From a virus, in the IMG/VR virus record IMGVR_UViG_3300019360_000037, positions 1 to 25,345 of that record: a DNA stretch of 25,345 bases; one strand, written 5' to 3'. Shown here one piece after another: positions 4,809-21,633 of the stretch. The position numbers were made by a program, and so were the translations under genes. Position 1 is the stretch's first letter. Each line of letters starts with the position of its first letter. The notes below the pieces were generated by a model. It was not told the origin of the DNA, did not search any database, and saw nothing but the letters and a program-made list of their open reading frames with translations.

Positions 4809-5594
4809 CTATCCAAGCACTACGACTTTCATTGCGTTTGAAGCAGGGGCTACTGTGAAATTAAGCCGCACCGTGTTGTTATCGGTACGCTTTTTTTCAC
4901 ATCCAACCTCGTCTTCATTACCAGATGCTTTTCTCACACTCACAAGCACATCTTTCGTTCCGAGATTGTGCGTGATGTCGAATTGCGTTGTAGAACCATC
5001 TCCGATTGTGGTTGTGTATTTCAGTTTACGATTTGAATAGTTTGCCAATTTCAGAGGCGTAACGATTCGTGTGTCATCCGTACCTGTGTTTGTCTCCGTT
5101 TGCGTAGCAAGCTCGGCAATACCCTTTGTCGTTTCGGTAGCATCAGGTGCAGAAGTTCCGAACTGAGTCCAAGCCACATTGCCGCTACCAAGTGTGAAAT
5201 TCACCTGAGTTTGTCGCCATGATGTTGCCGCGTCAGTACCTTCTTCAACAGTCACAACTGCTTGTTCGAGTTCTGCCGACGTTGAAGCATCTAACGAACG
5301 AGTCATTGCCACCGCCGCTCCGTTCCAAATGTAGATGCCGTTTTCCGACTGTGTTGATTGATTGCGAACGAGAACACGGTCTCCGCTAGTCATGCTGACT
5401 CCGTCAATGCTCGAACCCGGCGAAGATAAATTGATATTGCTTTGCGTTGCGACCCTGACAGAATCTTTCCATGCTAATCCTTCGACCGCACTGTTTAAGT
5501 CAGCGAGTCTGGCTGGTTCGTTAGGGTCAACAGGCGCAGGTAGATTCAGCACACGCGATGCAGACAACATATCTAAGTCATGGTTAATTTCCAT
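4809..5594 (-). CDS. Tail-fibre-like protein
   Basis: 261 residues. The N-terminus (SRVLNLPAPVDPNEPARLADLNSAV) followed by a GLAWKDSVRVAT repeat-like unit, SGDRVLVRNQSTQSENGIYIWNG and SWRQTQVNFTLGSGNVAWTQFG is a pattern seen in many phage tail fibres. The middle has the fibre connector TKGIAELATQTETNTGTDDTRIVTPLKLA. The C-terminal part (TTIGDGSTTQFDITHNLGTKDVLVSVRKA) resembles a small beta-sandwich tip also found in fibres. The start ATG has GAGAGGA upstream. Tail fibres usually follow tail genes; here the gene sits between MuF and the protease, so it may instead decorate the head or portal vertex. Confidence 0.75.
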   Translation of the reverse strand: MEINHDLDMLSASRVLNLPAPVDPNEPARLADLNSAVEGLAWKDSVRVATQSNINLSSPGSSIDGVSMTSGDRVLVRNQSTQSENGIYIWNGAAVAMTRSLDASTSAELEQAVVTVEEGTDAATSWRQTQVNFTLGSGNVAWTQFGTSAPDATETTKGIAELATQTETNTGTDDTRIVTPLKLANYSNRKLKYTTTIGDGSTTQFDITHNLGTKDVLVSVRKASGNEDEVGCEKKRTDNNTVRLNFTVAPASNAMKVVVLG

Positions 5595-5607
5595 CTTCTT
5601 TTTCCTC

Positions 5608-5952
5608 TCAAGAACAACGCACGCAACCAGTAGTCGCTACATTGAAATAACAAATAACTTGGTTAATTGAAGTATGCAGAACTTCAGCAGACATTTTCCT
5701 GCCACCTGAATTCAGAATCTCAACATCGGGGCGGAATCCTAAATTGTGATTTACCGTCCACGTTGTTGAGGCAACAGACTGAACAAATTCAAAAAATGCT
5801 CCGGCCTGACCTTGCGGACCCGGAGGACCTTGCAGACCGGGCGTTTCAACTTCTACGACACGCACGTCATCGGTGTTGATATTGACTTCTACCGATTCGT
5901 CAATGACTTCAACTTCAGCAACATTGTCTTCAATAATTACTTGTGTCGTCAT
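5608..5952 (-). CDS. Collagen-like short fibre protein
   Basis: 114 residues. Residues about 1-35 are acidic beta-strand repeats (VEVIDESVEVNINTDDVRVVEV). A short collagen-like triplet run, GLQGPPGPQGQAG, follows. The C-terminal domain contains TWTVNHNLGFRPDVEILNSGGRKM, a beta-sandwich like the one ending the next gene. Short Gly-X-Y segments in phage structural proteins drive trimerisation. It ends with GCVRCS, a paired-Cys tail that is unusual for a fibre. Its ATG overlaps the previous stop as TAATG, which couples it to the BppU-like gene. Confidence 0.7.
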   Translation of the reverse strand: MTTQVIIEDNVAEVEVIDESVEVNINTDDVRVVEVETPGLQGPPGPQGQAGAFFEFVQSVASTTWTVNHNLGFRPDVEILNSGGRKMSAEVLHTSINQVICYFNVATTGCVRCS

Positions 5953-6293
5953 TATGGATTTTCGTATCTGCTTACGACCTTTGTGCCGCCGAAAAGTAAT
6001 CTCAATGCACGACCTGATTGCTCAGTCACCATCACTGCAAATGTTCCACGTCGCCATGCAAAGGCTTCAATATCTGTTTTAGATAAAAAAACTCGAATCT
6101 TTTTTGTGCTTGAGTTAATGGTGACAACGCTACTGCTGTTTGAGTTGTAAATTATTTCATCGCCGGATTCCGGTTTGATTCTAAATTCCGCTTGGGTTAC
6201 AAGCACAGCCGCGCCATCAATTTTGTATGTTATGAAGAACTCTTTGTCTTCACCTTTCCAAAATGTTATTGGTGGCGGATTTTTAACAATCAT
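5952..6293 (-). CDS. Fibre-anchor protein, BppU N-domain-like
   Basis: 113 residues. The opening IVKNPPPITFWKGEDKEFFITYKIDGAAVLVTQAEFRI matches the style of the immunoglobulin-like N-terminal domain of baseplate/fibre anchors (BppU_N family): a W-K-G-E-D turn, then alternating strands and an ending on short strands. I infer an attachment domain for the following fibre genes. It is the first gene after leader copy 2. The ATG directly abuts the T-run of the terminator hairpin and no ribosome-binding purine tract is visible, so initiation probably depends on the leader structure. Confidence 0.55.
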   Translation of the reverse strand: MIVKNPPPITFWKGEDKEFFITYKIDGAAVLVTQAEFRIKPESGDEIIYNSNSSSVVTINSSTKKIRVFLSKTDIEAFAWRRGTFAVMVTEQSGRALRLLFGGTKVVSRYENP

Positions 6294-6301
6294 AAAAAAG
6301 A

Positions 6302-6336
6302 AGAAGCCCGCTGGACGAAATGTCCGACGGGCTTCT
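6302..6336 (-). terminator. Terminator/attenuator hairpin of leader copy 2
   Basis: A 15-bp stem (AGAAGCCCG..., loop ATTTC) with one U-G wobble and one mismatch, then a T-rich run that touches the ATG at 6293. A stop point placed exactly at a start codon suggests regulated readthrough rather than simple operon ending. Confidence 0.65.
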
Positions 6337-6370
6337 AATGAGCCTTTTAATTCTTAACTCCGCATGGGAG
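6302..6370 (-). ncRNA. Structured 5' leader, copy 2, before the fibre genes
   Basis: Same architecture as copies 1 and 3 on the minus strand. A hairpin CTCC-CATGC-GGAG (6370-6358) is followed by a 12-nt AU-rich linker, the block AGGCTCATTAGAAGCC (6345-6330) and a terminator-type stem (6336-6302). The first-hairpin stem differs from the other copies (AGCC/GGCT and GTCC/GGAC) yet pairs fully. It lies in the gap after the Com-like gene. No independent promoter placed to include the whole structure is convincing, so this copy is probably read from upstream. Confidence 0.6.
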
Positions 6371-6385
6371 ATTATTGTCTAAAAT

Positions 6386-6592
6386 CTAAACGTAAACAGC
6401 TTTTGCTTGAGCATTCTTTATAGGCATAGTGAATACAGCATAGCGTTTACACCCTTTGCATTTGTGTCGAAACACACCTGAAGCTCCGATACTAGCTTCA
6501 AGGAAAAAACGTCTGCAAGTTTTACAACGCACTTCAATAAAACCTGACTCGTTATCTACATCCACAATAGCGATTGGCTTTTTTTCGTCCAT
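6386..6592 (-). CDS. com: Com-like zinc-finger RNA-binding protein
   Basis: 68 residues from the ATG at 6592; an in-frame TTG at 6625 would add 11. Cys pairs at C23-x2-C26 and C45-x2-C48, set as IEVRCKTCRRFF and HKCKGCKRYAVF, match the Mu Com family. In Mu, Com binds the leader of mom mRNA, opens a stem-loop and so permits mom translation (established for Mu). No mom-like gene is seen in this window. The next feature downstream on the same strand is structured leader copy 2, which makes the leaders plausible targets (inference). The 124 bases upstream carry two pairs of 10-bp direct repeats. Confidence 0.7.
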   Translation of the reverse strand: MDEKKPIAIVDVDNESGFIEVRCKTCRRFFLEASIGASGVFRHKCKGCKRYAVFTMPIKNAQAKAVYV

Positions 6593-6616
6593 AACCCTTT
6601 CACAGAATATGTTTAA

Positions 6617-6683
6617 TTGGCGCAAATTGGCGCAAATACTGTTTTTCGGGGCTTGGGATTACTCGCAACATCACGCAACATCA
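6617..6683. repeat. Two tandem decamer duplications upstream of com-like gene
   Basis: TTGGCGCAAA occurs twice in tandem at 6617-6636, and CGCAACATCA twice in tandem at 6664-6683. Both lie in the non-coding gap 6593-6716 between the Cys-rich gene and the com-like gene. The first pair is centred about 35 bases upstream of the com-like ATG. They could be protein-binding iterons or replication slippage. Both decamers share a CGCAA core. Confidence 0.8.
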
Positions 6684-6716
6684 GAAAATGCACACAGGGC
6701 GATTGACGCGACTTTT

Positions 6717-6941
6717 TTATTTTTCGATTTTGATAAATTGAATGCCGTTGTCACCCGGATATGGTTTCGTGTGGTCATTCTTTCCTAGCCATATTTCGTC
6801 GGGTATGCCTTTGGGGAAGGCTGAACAACGACGAGCAGGAAAAGCATTGAGATTCAAATGCACACAAAGACTGCAAACCGAACTTATGCCCGGCATATCA
6901 AAATCTTGCAGTTGCTCTTTGTATTTTTCGCTCAATGTCAT
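6717..6941 (-). CDS. Small Cys-rich protein following MuF
   Basis: 74 residues, starting ATG in an ATGA overlap with the MuF stop codon. The sequence CSLCVHLN (C23, C26, H28), CSAFPKGIPDEIW (C39) and a conserved-looking HTKPYPGDNGIQF end suggest a small metal-binding fold. Short proteins with this C-x2-C-x-H...C-x-AFP-GIP...H...P-PGD-GI pattern are familiar next to phage head-morphogenesis genes, but the function is not known to me. Translational coupling suggests a role in head assembly or with MuF. Confidence 0.7.
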   Translation of the reverse strand: MTLSEKYKEQLQDFDMPGISSVCSLCVHLNLNAFPARRCSAFPKGIPDEIWLGKNDHTKPYPGDNGIQFIKIEK

Positions 6942-8398
6942 AACTTTTTGCGTTTATATCTTAATCCTACTTCTTTTGCTACTGCTTGCCAGATTAAATG
7001 TCGTTCAAGGTCTTTAGCATCATTTAAGCTAAGTTCACCGTCGCGCACTCTATCATGCATCTCGCGTTGGATTCTAGCATGATGTTTGTTATACGCATCA
7101 ATAATCTTTTCAGCGACATCTTCTGACCAACCGTTTTTAGGTTGTCGCATTGAAAAAAAATAATTGCGCGTGACCAATAATGTCTCAAGTATATCGAAAT
7201 CAATTGCATTGAAAATATCACGCACGCTGAATGATTCGTAAGAACGACTTCCTTCAGGCGGATGCCAGTGAAGGTCAATTCCGCCGCGTCCCGCTTCCGC
7301 TAATTCTTCCGACATCTCAACAGAACCAGCGTCTCCGATTGCAGTGCCTAACAATCTGCCTTGTCTATCGAAAATATGAGCAACTTCAACTTTTGAATTT
7401 TGTCTCTGTAACTCTTTTGCTTTCTCGATAATGGTAGATGGCGTTTCATAGTTCTCGCGCTCTTTTGGTTGACGGCGTTTTGTTTCTCGTCGCACCCGTC
7501 GCTCCAAACGCTTTTCAACAACATCATCGTCATCGTCATCACGTTTTTTGCGTGATTTTTTCGCGGCATTTTCTATTGTCTCTTGCAGTCCTGCGTTCTG
7601 TTTGGGAACACCAACAAACTTTCCTGCGCTCAGTTCATAAGTTCCGAGTCTGTATTGTGCTTTAACAGGATTGCCCTTTTTGTCGTAAGAGATTTGTGTA
7701 TCGGGGTTTGGGAATTCAGAGTCGTAACCGTCGGGCAAATCGGGCAAAGAAATCACATTACATCTGCAAGAAAAATCCCAAGGGGGATAATGTGTGTTCC
7801 AAAATTCATGATTTGCCGGAAGAACAATTCCATCGAGTGCGCGATGCGTAGGGCGTGTTCTATCATCGTTGACTGCGCTGTATTGCCAGAAGGGAAGCAA
7901 ATCGGAAACCTCTTCCATTTGACGACGGCGACCGACGCCATAAGCCATCTGCATATTGGTTCTGAAAACATTTTCAAGATGCCAATCACCTAACTCTTTA
8001 TGCCCTGCGCCGGAAAGAATGTTTTTGAAATTCTTAATAATTTTTTGTTGCGAAGTTCCTTTTGTAAGCGCGTCTTCAATCTCTTGACGAAATGATTCGA
8101 GAACATCTTCTTTATAAATGCCTGATACTGTAAATGCCGCCGCTCGTGCCTCGTCCTGAATGTCATAAAAAGTTTTTGCTTTTATAACTCGCTTTCGTTT
8201 GAAGTAATCAATCGCTTCTTCAGGCGGAACATCGAATCTTAACTGTAAGGGTCCTGCTTCTTCTGCAATAGAATCATCTTCGGCAAAGTCTGCAATCTTT
8301 GAATCGTTCTCTTCAGTTGCGAAGTCATAACCTAAAAGCCAGCTTGCAAATATGGCATCGCCCAAAACATTTTCAATCTTCTGAAAATCATCATCCAA
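6938..8398 (-). CDS. MuF-type head morphogenesis protein with C-terminal JAMM-like domain
   Basis: 486 residues if read from the TTG at 8398. Residues about 55-215 are the MuF (gp30-like) domain: PPEEAIDYFKRK, AFTVSG, then NDDRTRPTHRALDG and PPWDFSCRCNVISL. It is a minor head protein associated with the portal vertex. A basic/acidic linker (about 285-320) leads to a second domain with H377-x-H379-P380 and S391-x2-D394, close to the JAMM/MPN metalloprotease signature though with a longer H-to-S gap. No ATG or GTG lies near the domain start. The reading frame is open upstream to the A9 run at 8551-8559 and encodes the missing portal C-terminus, so this gene is probably expressed as a portal-MuF fusion. 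Codons 1-30 here are portal sequence. Confidence 0.8.
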   Translation of the reverse strand: MDDDFQKIENVLGDAIFASWLLGYDFATEENDSKIADFAEDDSIAEEAGPLQLRFDVPPEEAIDYFKRKRVIKAKTFYDIQDEARAAAFTVSGIYKEDVLESFRQEIEDALTKGTSQQKIIKNFKNILSGAGHKELGDWHLENVFRTNMQMAYGVGRRRQMEEVSDLLPFWQYSAVNDDRTRPTHRALDGIVLPANHEFWNTHYPPWDFSCRCNVISLPDLPDGYDSEFPNPDTQISYDKKGNPVKAQYRLGTYELSAGKFVGVPKQNAGLQETIENAAKKSRKKRDDDDDDVVEKRLERRVRRETKRRQPKERENYETPSTIIEKAKELQRQNSKVEVAHIFDRQGRLLGTAIGDAGSVEMSEELAEAGRGGIDLHWHPPEGSRSYESFSVRDIFNAIDFDILETLLVTRNYFFSMRQPKNGWSEDVAEKIIDAYNKHHARIQREMHDRVRDGELSLNDAKDLERHLIWQAVAKEVGLRYKRKKL

Positions 8399-8457
8399 AC
8401 CGTTGAAAAGCTTTTCGGGAAGTTGTTTGAGTTCTGATTGTGATTCGAGTTCTGAAA

Positions 8458-9936
8458 TTACTTGTCGGAAAATTGAATCATAGACGGGCGCAACCTCCGA
8501 AAGCGCACCGTCTTCAAGTTCGACTTCTGCGCGGACTTGTTCTGCGAGACTTTTTTTTTACCTTCTGCGAATTCGGCAGGGTCGGTTTGTGTTTCTTCTT
8601 CGTTAAACTGTTTTGGTTGTGAAGTTTTCGGAGTCAAAATCTCGTCAGGGTCGTCACTGGGTTCCGGTAGTTGAAACGAATCAAAGACAAACTTCTTCTG
8701 AATCGGTGTATTCATTTCCCAAAGTTTGTAGAGACGGCTTGCCAATTCGGTTTGGTCTTCTTGGGGGTCATATTGAATCGTCCACATTGGTGGGCGTACG
8801 TTGGGTCCGAAATTCCACAATACCAACGACCAAATAAGCTGAATGTTCACAGCACCTATTAAAGCTTTTGCATCCGCTTCTATTTTTTCAGCGCGGACTT
8901 CTTGATGCACTTCACCGAGTGCGCGGCTTCCGCCGCCTTCACTTCCTCTGGATGTAAGAGTCTGACCGAGAATCACGCGGGCAATTTCATTGTTGCAAAA
9001 ATCATCAACGAGTTCTTTGTGAGCCGAGCCGATGTTACGAACCATCTCCATCACTTCCATTGCGAAGCGTTCAGGAATTGCAACTGCGGGTTCATCGTTG
9101 ATTGCTTGCGCGGCTTCGAGTGCTGTTTGTTGTTCCGACGGCGATGCCCCACCCGGATAACGAGTGACAACAGAGCCACTACCTTTCTCGGCATATTTAA
9201 GCCAATTCTTGACGCCAGCGCGTTTAATCCAACTCGCCCAAAAGGTTTTTCGCATCAAAGGTGAACCCCAACGGTTTCCATAACGTGAGCGATAGCTGAG
9301 CGTGAAAAACTTCGATTCGGGGAGTAAGCCATTTTCGGGAACGCCTTCGAGAAACATTCCCTGGCGCAAACGTAAAGGTCCCGTTTGCGGATACATCATC
9401 GAGGCGGTTGAGTAGGAAGCAAATGCAGTGTCACCAAATGAAAAAAGATGTTGTGGTTTGAATTTAATGTCTTTGAAATAGATGCGGTCACGACCTTCAG
9501 CAAAAACCTTCTCTCCGATACAAACGCCTTTTGCGACTGCGTCCAATGCTTCAAACATGAAAGATTCAAAACCCATACGCGGGTTGTTTTCAAGCAAAAG
9601 ATTTCCGTCAAAATAATCGTGAAGAGTTTCTTCGATAAATTCCGCAACCTTTTTGTCTTGCTTTTTATCCGATGCCGGAAGAACAACCCGCGGCTTGCTC
9701 AATACGCCGTCTTTTCTGGTTTCAAGACATGATGACACCATTCCGTCTTTCTCTTCCATATCGTCATAAATCGCCATTGCAATCCAAGGGACGCTCTTCA
9801 ACTGTTGCCACATCCATGTTGGGTCGTCTGGAAATGTTTGCGTCGTCAATGCCCAACCGAGATAGCCCAGATTGAGTTTGTCACTCGCTAAGATTTCTTT
9901 GAACAAGTTGTTTATCATCTGTTTTCTGTCAGTCAT
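8458..9936 (-). CDS. Portal protein, DUF935/Mu gp29-like
   Basis: 492 residues as read in frame. Family features run from the N-terminus: DPTWMWQQLKSVPWIAMAIYDDMEEKDGMVSSCLETRKDGVLSKP, then SYRSRYGNRWGSPLMRKTFWASWIKR, and NNEIARVILGQTLTSRGSEGGGSRALGEVHQEV. It forms the ring through which DNA enters the head. After residue 462 (three Lys codons in an A9 run) the frame gives 30 basic, low-quality residues to a stop. The -1 frame instead gives an acidic helical segment (AEQVRAEVELEDGALSEVAP...) like normal DUF935 C-termini and runs on into MuF without a stop. The ATG overlaps the terminase end as TGAAATG. Confidence 0.9.
   Translation of the reverse strand: MTDRKQMINNLFKEILASDKLNLGYLGWALTTQTFPDDPTWMWQQLKSVPWIAMAIYDDMEEKDGMVSSCLETRKDGVLSKPRVVLPASDKKQDKKVAEFIEETLHDYFDGNLLLENNPRMGFESFMFEALDAVAKGVCIGEKVFAEGRDRIYFKDIKFKPQHLFSFGDTAFASYSTASMMYPQTGPLRLRQGMFLEGVPENGLLPESKFFTLSYRSRYGNRWGSPLMRKTFWASWIKRAGVKNWLKYAEKGSGSVVTRYPGGASPSEQQTALEAAQAINDEPAVAIPERFAMEVMEMVRNIGSAHKELVDDFCNNEIARVILGQTLTSRGSEGGGSRALGEVHQEVRAEKIEADAKALIGAVNIQLIWSLVLWNFGPNVRPPMWTIQYDPQEDQTELASRLYKLWEMNTPIQKKFVFDSFQLPEPSDDPDEILTPKTSQPKQFNEEETQTDPAEFAEGKKKVSQNKSAQKSNLKTVRFRRLRPSMIQFSDK
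8551..8559 (-). promoter_or_regulatory. A9 slippery run between portal and MuF frames
   Basis: In the coding (minus) sense the run reads GGT AAA AAA AAA GTC. Slipping back one base on AAA AAA continues as AGT CTC GCA and stays open through the whole MuF gene. The joined protein would be 462 + 537 = 999 residues. A AAA AAA is a classic bacterial -1 slippery heptamer. A one-base deletion or sequencing error in the homopolymer would look the same. Confidence 0.6.
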
Positions 9937-17166: not shown

Positions 17167-19326
17167 ATGTGGTTGTCATTTGAAGAGATTGAACAATTTG
17201 ACGTTACGGACAGATGGATTCGGAAACAAGTGAGTGATGGGATTTGGGAATCACGCGAGACAGGCGAACGCGGGCGAAACGGGAAACTAATTCGTGAAGT
17301 GAATCTCGAAAGCTTGCCGGAAGATTTGCAACTGCAATGGTCAAAGCGCAACGGTGTTGAAGACCAAGAAGACAGTTCTTTGACAACTGAATCGTCAACT
17401 TTAGAAGAACGCTTGATAACTGCCCTCAAGCGTTATGAGCCGAACGAGCGTGAAGCTTTTTTAGCTGAAGCTCGTCGGCTCTTGAATTTGGTAAGTCGCT
17501 ATCTTGCAGTCAATCCGAAACGACGAATGAATGATGTGACAGGCAAACATGAGTTTGTTCGTGAAGTTTTCAGGCTTTGTGAAGAAGCGATTTGCAAAGA
17601 CAAAATTGTCTTATCAATCGAGCCGCATAGGGCGCAATGCCCGTCACCATTTACGCTCGACGGTTGGGCGCGGAAATGTAGTAAAGAAGGGCTGTTGACC
17701 TTCCTTCGGTCATCAGAGAAACGAGCGACAAGCAAAAAGCGTGACCGACGCAAAGCCCAAATTTCCGCCGAAGCCGTCGAGTGGGTGAACAACATCTGGC
17801 GCAATTATCCAAGCCCACGCGCACTCTATAAAGCCACACAAAAGAAAGCACGACGCGAAGGATGGATTATCCCAAGCGAGAGTTGGTTTTATCGTTTGTG
17901 GTCAAGTTTGCCTAAGGTCGTGAAGACGCTAGTTTTTGAAGGAACGAAAGCTTACACATCGAAATTCGCGCCTTATGTTCCGCGCACATACGACGACCTT
18001 GAAGCATTACAAATTGTTTGCGGCGACCATTCGGTTCGTGATGTTACGGTAACTTTGCCCGACGGCTCACTTGTCAGACCGTGGCTCACGTTGTGGTTGG
18101 ATTTACGAACATATCTGATTTGGGGATGGCACGCGGGGCTTGTGCCTTCTTCAAACTCTGCGGGTCTTGCTTATGCACACGGGGTTCGCCATTGGGGGGC
18201 GCAACCTCTTTCAAGACCCGCAGAAGAATTCTTCTCTTACATCTACACCGACCAAGGGCGTGATTACAAATCGAAAACTTGGGACGGTAAAGTTCTCAAC
18301 TTCAAACAAGCTTTCAAAGTTCAAGGCGGGTTGGAAGTTCTCTTGACTCAGCGGCGGGTTGGTTTTGTCGAAGAGACAGGAATTAAACATCTTCTCGCAC
18401 GCGGCTACAACGCACGCGAAAAAGCTGTCGAGCGCGTTCACAAAGACATCAGCGATTGGGAACAAAACACATTTGAAATTGAGTTCTGCGGACGCGACGC
18501 AAAGAACAAACCGGAACGCTGGCAAGAAGCCTGGTATCAGCACGAAAAGTTTCGCAAAGGCAAAAGAAGCGAATCGCCGTTTATGACATTGAGCGATTAC
18601 CTCGACAACCTTTCCGGTTGGATTGCCGACTTCAATCACAGCGAACATTCACGAACGACATTGAGCAATAAGACAATCGTTCCGGTCGAAGAATACAAAC
18701 GCCTATACACAACGCGCTACACAATCAGCGACGAGGCGTTGTCATTGCTCTTGATGAAAACCGACGTGCGAACGATAGACAAGGATGGAATCAGAATGTT
18801 CCAGCCACATTGGAATTATCTGCACGAATCAATGTCACCGTTCAAAGGGCAACAGGTCGAAGTCAGGTATGACGACAACGATTATTCCCGTGTGTGGGTT
18901 ATTTTACCTTCAACACAAAACGAACCGTCGCGCATTGTTGAAGCTTCTCTTCTTCACCGTTCATCAGTTCTCAATCCCAACAAACACACCGTCGAAACAA
19001 TCAAAAAATTTGCCGCGCATGAAAAGAAGGTCATTCGTGATTTTAACTTCATCACTCAATCGGTAATTCGCGGCGAATCAGTTGAAGACCGCGTTGCACA
19101 GCTCATCCAGCCCGAACAAGAGCAAGAAGAAATCGCATTGCCATTAGCGGCAGTCGCGGGCGAACGACCAGGAGCAAATGTTCACGTTATGACGCGAATG
19201 GATAAGCCCAAACTTAGAGCTGTTCGTCGCACGGTTACGGCTGATGAAGTTTCGCGCATTGAAGTTGACGATTCAATTTTTTCTACACCGAGCAAGGGGC
19301 AAGTAAAACAGTTTGATTTTGATTAA
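17167..19326 (+). CDS. Mu-type DDE transposase A
   Basis: 719 residues: it joins phage ends to target DNA for integration and replicative transposition. An N-terminal Mu-type winged helix ([32 protein letters not shown]) leads to DNA-binding helices. The RNase H-like core has D287 ([10 protein letters not shown]), D362 (YTDQGRD) and E422 (KAVERVHKD); MuA has D269, D336, E392, so spacing is close. A beta-barrel domain and a basic C-terminal end follow. Length compares with 663 for MuA. The start is ATG after GAGGTGAATC; it lies 12 bases after the regulator gene. Confidence 0.95.
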
Positions 19327-19348
19327 GAAAGGAGAAAGAAGAAAGGAC

Positions 19349-19840
19349 ATGACATACGCACAGATAAAAGAAATGGACGATATGAACTTAAACGAAACGT
19401 CTGAGCCAAAGACAGAGCCAAAGAAACAAACACCTGTCGAGCGTTTGGTTTCATCAGCTTATGACGCGCTTGCAATTCAAGGTCTTTGCAGAGCGATTGC
19501 CGACCCTATGGCTTTCACAGAAGAGCGGCGCAAATACATGAGTCGGATTGAAAACATTCAAGACGACATTCGTAACGCCATCCGCGAAGTCGAGCGCGAT
19601 AAAAATAATGTGAAAAATGACGTGATTATTGAGGGCTACGAAATGATGAGCAGTCCGATGATAACCATTACACAAGACCATTGGCGTTTTTTGTTTCTCG
19701 AATTAGTGGACAGGGTTAAAGGGCAGATTCCAAACCACGAAGTCAAAATTCTTTTGTACTTCGCGGAATTAGCGGCACCGCACGTTGAACGCGTACAGAT
19801 TGAAGCTTTAGGAAACTATGACGAAAGAAGAACTAGCTAA
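19349..19840 (+). CDS. Hypothetical early protein
   Basis: 163 residues from the ATG after GAAAGGAC; an upstream in-frame start would overlap the transposase. The first 35 residues are charged and probably disordered. The core is helical (VERLVSSAYDALAIQGLCRAIADPMAFTEERRKYMSRIENIQDDIRNAI...), followed by MITITQDHWRFLFLELVDRVKGQIPNHEVKILLYFAELAAPHVERV. No family recognised. Its place between A and B suggests a replication or regulatory accessory gene. Confidence 0.65.
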   Translation: MTYAQIKEMDDMNLNETSEPKTEPKKQTPVERLVSSAYDALAIQGLCRAIADPMAFTEERRKYMSRIENIQDDIRNAIREVERDKNNVKNDVIIEGYEMMSSPMITITQDHWRFLFLELVDRVKGQIPNHEVKILLYFAELAAPHVERVQIEALGNYDERRTS

Positions 19841-20099
19841 TGAGTTGGAGACGCTTGCAGACCGCGCACAAAGCGAAGGGTTTGTTCACGAAGCGCGTGT
19901 ACTGAGGCTTTTTATGGGAGCATCTCTGATTGGTCTTAGCGGTGGATTGATAGAGTTTTTGCAACCCTTTTCAAAATCGGTTCACAACGTCTGGAAGATT
20001 TTGGTTGAAGACCAAACAACAGAAAAAGACGAAGTTCTCGCCGCTGAATTTTTGATTGAAAAACAAGATACAAAACGCGGAATGGACACCGATGCGTGA
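19818..20099 (+). CDS. Small hypothetical early protein with hydrophobic segment
   Basis: 93 residues from an ATG overlapping the previous gene by 23 bases. The N-terminus is helical and charged (MTKEELANELETLADRAQSEGFVHEARVLRLF). A hydrophobic stretch at about 32-50 (FMGASLIGLSGGLIEFLQPF) could be a membrane helix, followed by a polar tail. Function unknown. Confidence 0.6.
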   Translation: MTKEELANELETLADRAQSEGFVHEARVLRLFMGASLIGLSGGLIEFLQPFSKSVHNVWKILVEDQTTEKDEVLAAEFLIEKQDTKRGMDTDA

Positions 20100-20273
20100 T
20101 TTGCCGCAAGCAAAATTCCAGAGCGGCTTTCAGATTTCACGGTGTGCTTCATCGCTTTTGCATTGAGTGCTGGAAACAAAAACGAATCAGAGTCAGACAC
20201 TGGGTCAGTCGTTACGCACACGAAAGTTATATCCGACGATGGGCAAACGGCATTGTCATTAAAGCGATTTTAA
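20092..20273 (+). pseudogene. Possible small early gene split by a -1 shift
   Basis: An ATG at 20092, overlapping the previous stop, starts MRDLPQAK and in that frame ends after 24 codons (20166). One base back at the AAAA near 20113 the frame stays open to TAA at 20273. It then reads IPERLSDFTVCFIAFALSAGNKNESESDTGSVV..., with ordinary codon use. The joined product would be about 60 residues. It could be an indel or frameshifting; it may also not be a gene. The stretch 20100-20299 holds no better candidate. Confidence 0.3.
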
Positions 20274-20299
20274 GAACAACAAGAAAGGGGGTGAGAGAC

Positions 20300-20503
20300 G
20301 TGGCACAGGCAGAAGAACGAGCGACCAAGATATTGAAACTGCCGGACAGAATTGCGGCAATCATCGGCAAGACGTTCGCTGTCAGAGGGGACGATTACCA
20401 ACTCGAAGACGACATCGCGCTGATGAAGATACGCGAAGAGCTTGAACAGATTGACCAAGACATCATCAAGCGAAACAAAAACAAAAGGCTCTCTCGGGGC
20501 TAA
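20300..20503 (+). CDS. Small hypothetical early protein upstream of MuB
   Basis: 67 residues. The GTG at 20300 has a strong GGGGG-type purine tract just upstream, which is why I prefer it to a longer reading from the GTG at 20096. That longer reading adds a Trp/Arg-rich stretch of poor coding quality. The sequence (AEERATKILKLPDRIAAIIGKTFAVRGDDYQLEDDIALMKIREELEQIDQDIIKR) is helical and charged with a basic end. The stop codon lies in the loop of a hairpin (20487-20513). Function unknown. Confidence 0.55.
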   Translation: MAQAEERATKILKLPDRIAAIIGKTFAVRGDDYQLEDDIALMKIREELEQIDQDIIKRNKNKRLSRG

Positions 20504-20513
20504 CGAAAGAGCC
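20487..20513 (+). other. Hairpin spanning a stop codon
   Basis: GGCTCTCTCG and CGAAAGAGCC form a 10-bp stem with one mismatch and a GGGCTAA loop containing the stop TAA. It lies just before the long-loop terminator-like structure, making a double hairpin ahead of MuB. Confidence 0.55.
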
Positions 20514-20519
20514 GGAATC

Positions 20520-20579
20520 AGCCGGACTGACCGCAAAGTCAACCAACGTGTTTCAACTGCTTTATAGGGCAGTCCGGCT
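20520..20579 (+). terminator. Long-loop terminator-like hairpin before MuB
   Basis: A perfect 10-bp stem, AGCCGGACTG (20520-20529) with CAGTCCGGCT (20570-20579), encloses a 40-nt loop and is followed by TTTTC. It lies 31 bases before the MuB ATG, so it could attenuate B expression. The loop is much longer than in ordinary terminators. Confidence 0.5.
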
Positions 20580-20610
20580 TTTCAATTGCAAACTTGAGAG
20601 GAAAATTGAA

Positions 20611-21633
20611 ATGGGTAACGAAAAAACTGAAAAACCAAAATTGCGAGTCGTGGGTGGCAAGCCAAGCTACGACGAAGAACTGAGATTGTGGCTCGAAAAA
20701 CACAAAGACGAAAACCAGCATTTGAGTTTAACGATACTGGCTCGTTCCGACCACATCGGCGGAAGCAGAACACAGATTCAACAGTATCTCGAAGGAACTT
20801 ATTTCTTGCCGAAAGAACAAGGCGGAACAGGAGTCAAAGAATCAAAGCTTGAAGAGCGCATTCGTCGTTATCGGGAAAAAGTTGAAGGAACTGTCAGACA
20901 CGGATACGCGAACACATTTGTTGAAACGCGAAGCTGGCAACAGTTTCAACACGCTTGTCACACTGCAATTTCCGAGAATGTGATTGTTGTCGTTTACGCA
21001 AAACCCGGTGTTGGGAAATCAAGATGCTTGAGCGAATACAGCTTGAAAAAAACAACGACGATGCCAATTCAAATTATGTGTAGCGCAAACATTACGACAC
21101 GTTATTTTGTGCAGAAAGTCGCACGCGAACTTGGAATTGATGACCGCACACCAACGGCAAAACTTGAAGACCAAATCTCAGAGAAACTAAAACGCAATCC
21201 GCGACCGATTTTCGTTGACCAAACTAACTATCTAAATGAAAAGGCGTTGGGAACAATCTGTTATGTATGGGAAATCTCTCGTGTGCCAATCGTATTGATT
21301 GGCACAAAAGACCTTTTCGAGTTGTTCATCACATCGCGTTTGACTGAAGACGTTCGCGCTCAACTTTCGAGCCGCGTGGCAATGCACTATCCATTGAAAG
21401 AACTCTCACAAGCAGAAGTTAAAGCAATCATCAAACGCGCTCTTCAATCAAATGCAACCGATGACGTAATTGCACAGATTTACACAGTCACACAAGGCAT
21501 TCATCGCCACGTTGACATGATTGTTCCGCGTATCAACGAACTCGCTACGCGAAACCAAGAACAACTTGATGCCGGCGAAGTGACAATGCTGGACATCGTT
21601 GAAACGGCAGGGCGTCGTTTGATGGTTGGATGA
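20611..21633 (+). CDS. MuB-like AAA+ ATPase, transposition target selector
   Basis: 340 residues: binds target DNA with ATP and stimulates transposase A. An N-terminal helical DNA-binding part (SLTILARSDHIGGSRTQIQQYLEGTYF) resembles the MuB N-domain. Walker A is KPGVGKS (Lys 136). Walker B is RPIFVDQTN with Asp 203 and Gln 204 where Glu is common. A sensor-type segment IVLIGTKDLF and arginine-rich LSSRVAMHYPL follow. The ATG has GAGAGGA 8-9 bases upstream. It is separated from A by four small genes, unlike Mu where B follows A directly. Confidence 0.9.
   Translation: MGNEKTEKPKLRVVGGKPSYDEELRLWLEKHKDENQHLSLTILARSDHIGGSRTQIQQYLEGTYFLPKEQGGTGVKESKLEERIRRYREKVEGTVRHGYANTFVETRSWQQFQHACHTAISENVIVVVYAKPGVGKSRCLSEYSLKKTTTMPIQIMCSANITTRYFVQKVARELGIDDRTPTAKLEDQISEKLKRNPRPIFVDQTNYLNEKALGTICYVWEISRVPIVLIGTKDLFELFITSRLTEDVRAQLSSRVAMHYPLKELSQAEVKAIIKRALQSNATDDVIAQIYTVTQGIHRHVDMIVPRINELATRNQEQLDAGEVTMLDIVETAGRRLMVG

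Follow-up and report, generated by a model that had tools for sequence, protein, structure and literature searches.

We propose that a run of nine adenines (A9) near the end of a phage portal gene is very likely a programmed recoding site, whichever of two mechanisms acts on it, a reading that rests on the conservation of the run and of the frame offset across it, on dual coding in the overlap beyond it, and on in-frame fusions that keep both A9 and nearby -1 stops. The run lies in the window, the whole 25,345-base stretch of an IMG/VR virus record that was analysed, which we assign to a Mu-like transposable phage because it encodes a MuA-like transposase and an AAA ATPase (17167-21633, + strand; Pfam) and whose relatives occur in Acidobacteria MAGs. 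Judged by sequence comparison, the A9-type junction is common to this phage and to dozens of its relatives, which come from two bacterial phyla. In our model the majority product would be a short portal ending in an RFxxLRPSM tail. A fraction of the product would shift by a net -1 at the run, somewhat more likely through RNA-polymerase slippage that adds one extra A in part of the mRNAs than through ribosomal slippage, and would carry, after the portal core, a C-terminal helical segment, MuF and a further C-terminal domain. Both proteins would be made and co-assembled in the portal ring, and if short and fused portals do assemble in one ring, the slip rate would set the number of MuF-bearing subunits. 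By analogy with gp7 of SPP1, which is recruited by the portal in a few copies (PMC6316719), the slip could have a role in copy number. Gene order alone does not fix how a ring-shaped portal gains a few copies of MuF; the nine-base run could set the ratio, an idea that the isolates RcWaterboi, RcapMu and RR1-B open to testing. Portal and MuF gene calls in the group are probably incomplete: the short portal as annotated is missing its C-terminal helical segment, and the start given for MuF is probably spurious.

The features of the locus are collected in Table 1. The portal matches Pfam Portal_Mu (PF06074; E=1.7e-74, 251.6 bits, gathering cutoff 23.9) and the portal family PHROG 113 (3e-85), MuF matches Phage_Mu_F (PF04233; E=1.4e-20, 74.5 bits, gathering cutoff 29.6), and the -1 frame product encoded at 6938..8551 (- strand) matches PHROG 220, minor head protein and DNA pilot (4.8e-60). 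The preliminary description had placed A9 at 8551-8559 and predicted a 999-residue fusion across it; the position is exact, a net -1 there gives an uninterrupted portal–MuF product of that length ending at 6938 (- strand), and no other A/T run in the window matches its length. Its statement that MuF has no ATG or GTG near its domain start also holds, and MuF in the window has no plausible start codon of its own, the earliest candidate being the TTG at 8398, 50 codons past A9. The stretch read in the -1 frame directly past the run had been likened to a portal C-terminus. In a distant relative, phage RcapMu, the equivalent segment aligns with the C-terminal part of the L021 portal (41% over 76 aa, 8e-10) and matches positions 456-636 of the PHROG 113 portal. 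In the window clade the segment (8240..8551) could be aligned across relatives. By sequence, the -1 segment ahead of MuF corresponds to a C-terminal domain that in conventional Mu-type portals is encoded in the portal frame. Phages such as Mu, Vibrio and Mushu phages have one gene for the portal and another for MuF.

Table 1. Features of the portal–MuF locus, in window coordinates.
Feature	Position	Strand	Basis or remark
Portal gene, zero frame, short product of 492 aa, Mu gp29/DUF935 type	8458..9936	-	Pfam, PHROG
A9 slippery run, GGT AAA AAA AAA GTC in portal frame	8551..8559	-	direct reading
TAA stop of the MuF (-1) frame, overlapping the run start and closing the MuF frame upstream	8558..8560	-	
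Dual-coded overlap: zero-frame tail RFxxLRPSM...stop and -1 frame LEDGALSxVAPxYD	8458..8550	-	11 phages
-1 frame product: helical segment, MuF and C-terminal domain, 537 codons	6938..8551	-	open throughout
-1 frame helical segment, in place of the conventional Mu-type portal C-terminal domain	8240..8551	-	lower boundary approximate
TTG, earliest candidate start in MuF frame past the run	8396..8398	-	without conserved counterpart
MuF domain	7751..8092	-	Pfam Phage_Mu_F, residues 103-216 of ORF from 8398

To find relatives of the window we used the MuF protein, a portal alignment, genome searches and a DNA pattern that describes the overlap. The window portal, scanned as a single sequence against viruses, returned none; the alignment scan and the DNA pattern did recover them, L035 and L036 being set aside as chance matches of the pattern. 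Twelve distinct Acidobacteria-associated sequences carry A9–A10 at the junction, eleven with the same offset (the window, L002, L003, L004, L005, L006, L010, L011, L016, L030 and L032) and one in-frame. In all eleven MuF lies in the -1 frame relative to the portal with A9 or A10 between them; the runs begin in codon phases 0, 1 and 2 and their distance to the RFxxLRPSM motif differs, and the offset is always -1. L038, a rearranged twelfth sequence of the -1 type, has A10 and the same frame before the rearrangement sets in. In a sample of the acidobacterial phylum only distant portals were found, among them an in-frame fusion (L024) and separate genes (L021-L023).

The zero-frame portal tail past the run had been dismissed as basic nonsense, a view that does not survive comparison, since RFxxLRPSM is kept in relatives with 53–59% portal identity. 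In the overlap, 0.471 of pairs differ at third positions of the MuF frame, against a minimum elsewhere of 0.515 across 552 windows of equal size, and within the core of the overlap the wobble bases of MuF do not vary among the 11 distinct phages at precisely those places where RFxxLRPS is encoded in the portal frame. What changes occur in this core are mostly synonymous for the portal (TTG/CTG for Leu, Pro wobble), and in the stretch between run and core variation tracks the MuF frame, with 0.44, 0.50 and 0.67 at its first, second and third codon positions, which together argue that the tail is not nonsense and that the -1 frame is in use right from the run. On this pattern of variation the short zero-frame tail is under selection in the clade of the window, and the conservation of RFxxLRPS in DNA shared with the MuF frame suggests that the short and the fused product are probably both made.

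The same arrangement recurs in a second, distant group. In RcapMu (JN190960) the junction reads CTA CAA AAA AAA GCC TGA, a run of A8, with MuF onward in the -1 frame. A search with the RcapMu portal gave 80 loci, 54 of which carry the run: 40 are of the -1 type with A9, one is of the -1 type with A10, 12 are in-frame with A9, and L049, the single A8 locus, has a +1 arrangement. The junction run is the sole A/T run of at least 8 in 447 kb of these 54 loci (mean GC 0.62), so A9 at this place exceeds chance. Conservation of the run and its offset, which had been set beforehand as the test of a programmed shift, is thus found in two distant groups, including isolates: the phage isolates RcWaterboi and Rhizobium RR1-B, sequenced independently, both have A9, as does the record of EBPR siphovirus 4. 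Portal–MuF fusion is not universal, however, as in five RcapMu-type relatives without the run (L089, L091-L093 and L112) the portal stop lies in an ATGA/GTGA-type overlap instead, which suggests that they may make a separate helical-segment and MuF protein through coupled translation.

The in-frame fusions might seem to contradict a slip, and the preliminary description had counted such relatives against it. They do exist, but A9 is retained in them, and reading on from it in the -1 frame meets a stop within four codons in 8/9 dereplicated RcapMu-type loci (background 0.16, binomial p 3.3e-6, kinship uncorrected, the four-codon cut-off having been chosen after the distances were known). With a cut-off of three codons, 7/12 in-frame fusions have an early -1 stop (background 0.136, p 4e-4), and no excess of early stops was seen in the +1 frame of the dereplicated RcapMu-type in-frame fusions. 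The in-frame member of the window clade, L020 (G068), is a 967-residue portal–MuF fusion with A10 that retains RFKRLRPSMME-stop in its +1 frame. As A9 is followed by a prompt -1 stop, the same shift would switch between the short and the fused form whichever the arrangement, and we read the in-frame fusions as a putative mirror configuration of the -1 loci.

As to how the shift occurs, the sequences favour RNA-polymerase slippage over ribosomal -1 slippage by a modest preference. Nine-base runs are the usual threshold for slippage (PMC1088944), and a run of 9, sometimes 10, is kept at constant length in phases 0, 1 and 2, as transcriptional realignment needs of a homopolymer of some 8-9 bases or more; run length is conserved and codon phase is not. 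Programmed -1 ribosomal frameshifting at A_AAA_AAA or A_AAA_AAG would yield the same two products, and we regard it as a serious contender somewhat below an even chance. Such a heptamer is found at each window-clade run, as the preliminary description had pointed out for the window, and it agrees with the ribosomal route; however, a run of at least nine contains A_AAA_AAA in any phase, so its presence is automatic and uninformative. The in-frame fusions are adapted to a shift by -1, as ribosomal slippage would have it, but one A inserted by RNA polymerase gives an identical net shift, and 9-10 A's are kept in all three codon phases although 6-7 would suffice for the ribosome. Regions 3' of the run are slightly more structured than controls in the RcapMu-type group (mean z -1.04 vs -0.20), a mild excess that counts towards the ribosomal route, although the consensus fold is weak. 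Weighing somewhat against a stimulated ribosomal shift, and in favour of the polymerase, an SD-like tetramer upstream of the run is present in 0/54 RcapMu-type loci, a search of the window clade for a conserved 3' stem gave none, and consistent structure after the run was found in neither the window clade nor the RcapMu-type group. A bolder version of the model, tentative but not far from an even bet, is that a widespread class of Mu-like phages builds portal rings of mixed composition, the count of MuF-bearing subunits being set by RNA-polymerase slippage on the conserved A9; the default product might then be either form, because selection would keep the ratio-setting run and not a frame.

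Translation of MuF as a separate protein, by coupling or re-initiation past the portal stop, is very improbable as a general explanation. The ATGA/GTGA-type overlaps of the five relatives without the run speak for it, and a GTGA overlap is present in L010. Candidate starts are, however, scattered in both groups: the earliest lie 4-133 codons past the run in run-bearing RcapMu-type members and 26-75 codons past it in 12 window-clade sequences, with no position in common. In addition, the -1 frame of the RcapMu-type loci is under coding constraint directly past the run (periodicity 0.144/0.013/0.487 at positions 1/2/3), ahead of most candidate starts. More doubtful still is a homopolymer sequencing or assembly error that hides a true in-frame fusion, an idea prompted by the window being a metagenomic virus record with A9 as its longest homopolymer and by L020 being in-frame with A10. 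Many independent records show the same offset, complete genomes of isolates among them, and selection acts on the zero-frame tail. A9 is moreover common to in-frame and -1 RcapMu-type members, whose differences lie outside the run, a pattern for which such an error cannot account. Phase variation, with the fusion turned on or off as the DNA run gains or loses bases from one generation to the next, is just as unlikely, for although long homopolymers mutate and L020 (A10) and L049 (A8) resemble length changes, A9 is present in 47/49 dereplicated RcapMu-type loci and is common to both configurations.

A fixed ratio of short to extended product set by recoding is reportedly found in the lambda tail assembly chaperone G/GT frameshift, which resembles the portal–MuF case in making short and extended products of a structural gene and is said to differ in the genes involved, in usually other slippery sequences and in a chaperone that is absent from the virion. 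In the open-access literature we found no description of portal–MuF recoding beyond the annotation of RcapMu JN190960, which states that a "possible +1 frameshift would allow readthrough" and remarks on the lack of a good RBS for MuF. RcapMu is like the window in that its short Mu gp29-like portal ends just past an A run with MuF in the -1 frame, and unlike it in having A8; the annotation raises a frameshift for that one phage only, and the conservation of the run, the mirror configuration and the dual coding were absent from the open-access papers found. In-frame portal–MuF fusions are already known from Microbacterium phages of clusters EA3/EA5/EA8 and EB (PMC7302621), which likewise place portal and MuF in one polypeptide, but as single fused genes for which no recoding site is described (PMC7302621). 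The closest experimental parallel is transcriptional slippage in tssM1 of Citrobacter rodentium and tssM3 of Yersinia pseudotuberculosis, where poly-A slippage in C. rodentium TssM yields two lengths that are both required (PMC4256274). These genes share with portal–MuF the poly-A run and the two product lengths, the default being short in one and long in the other; they differ in belonging to type VI secretion, with A11 in tssM1 (PMC4256274).

Several irregular loci were seen among the relatives of the window. On contig IMGVR_UViG_3300044815_000221 (L038/L033) the junction is broken soon after A10 and a MuF fragment is joined straight to the LEDGTLREAAPFYD motif, by insertion, recombination or misassembly. 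In L006 (5001-7181) an intein-like insert (CFLPGTKI...FASNC), accompanied by an antisense ORF at 5541-6857, splits MuF, and L005 has a similar antisense ORF at 5739-6527. L016 (G002:C127:24702) has an additional frame break within the portal body at which we identified no slip site, and the portal relative L013 differs at its C-terminus and lacks the run, with MuF not seen further downstream. The C-terminal domain of L020 differs from the usual one, for which Pfam gave no match up to E=1 with the window, L002 or L016. In the window this domain past MuF (6938-7441, - strand) holds an HxHPP...S..D motif, also seen in L002 and L006, that resembles the JAMM/JAB metalloprotease motif.
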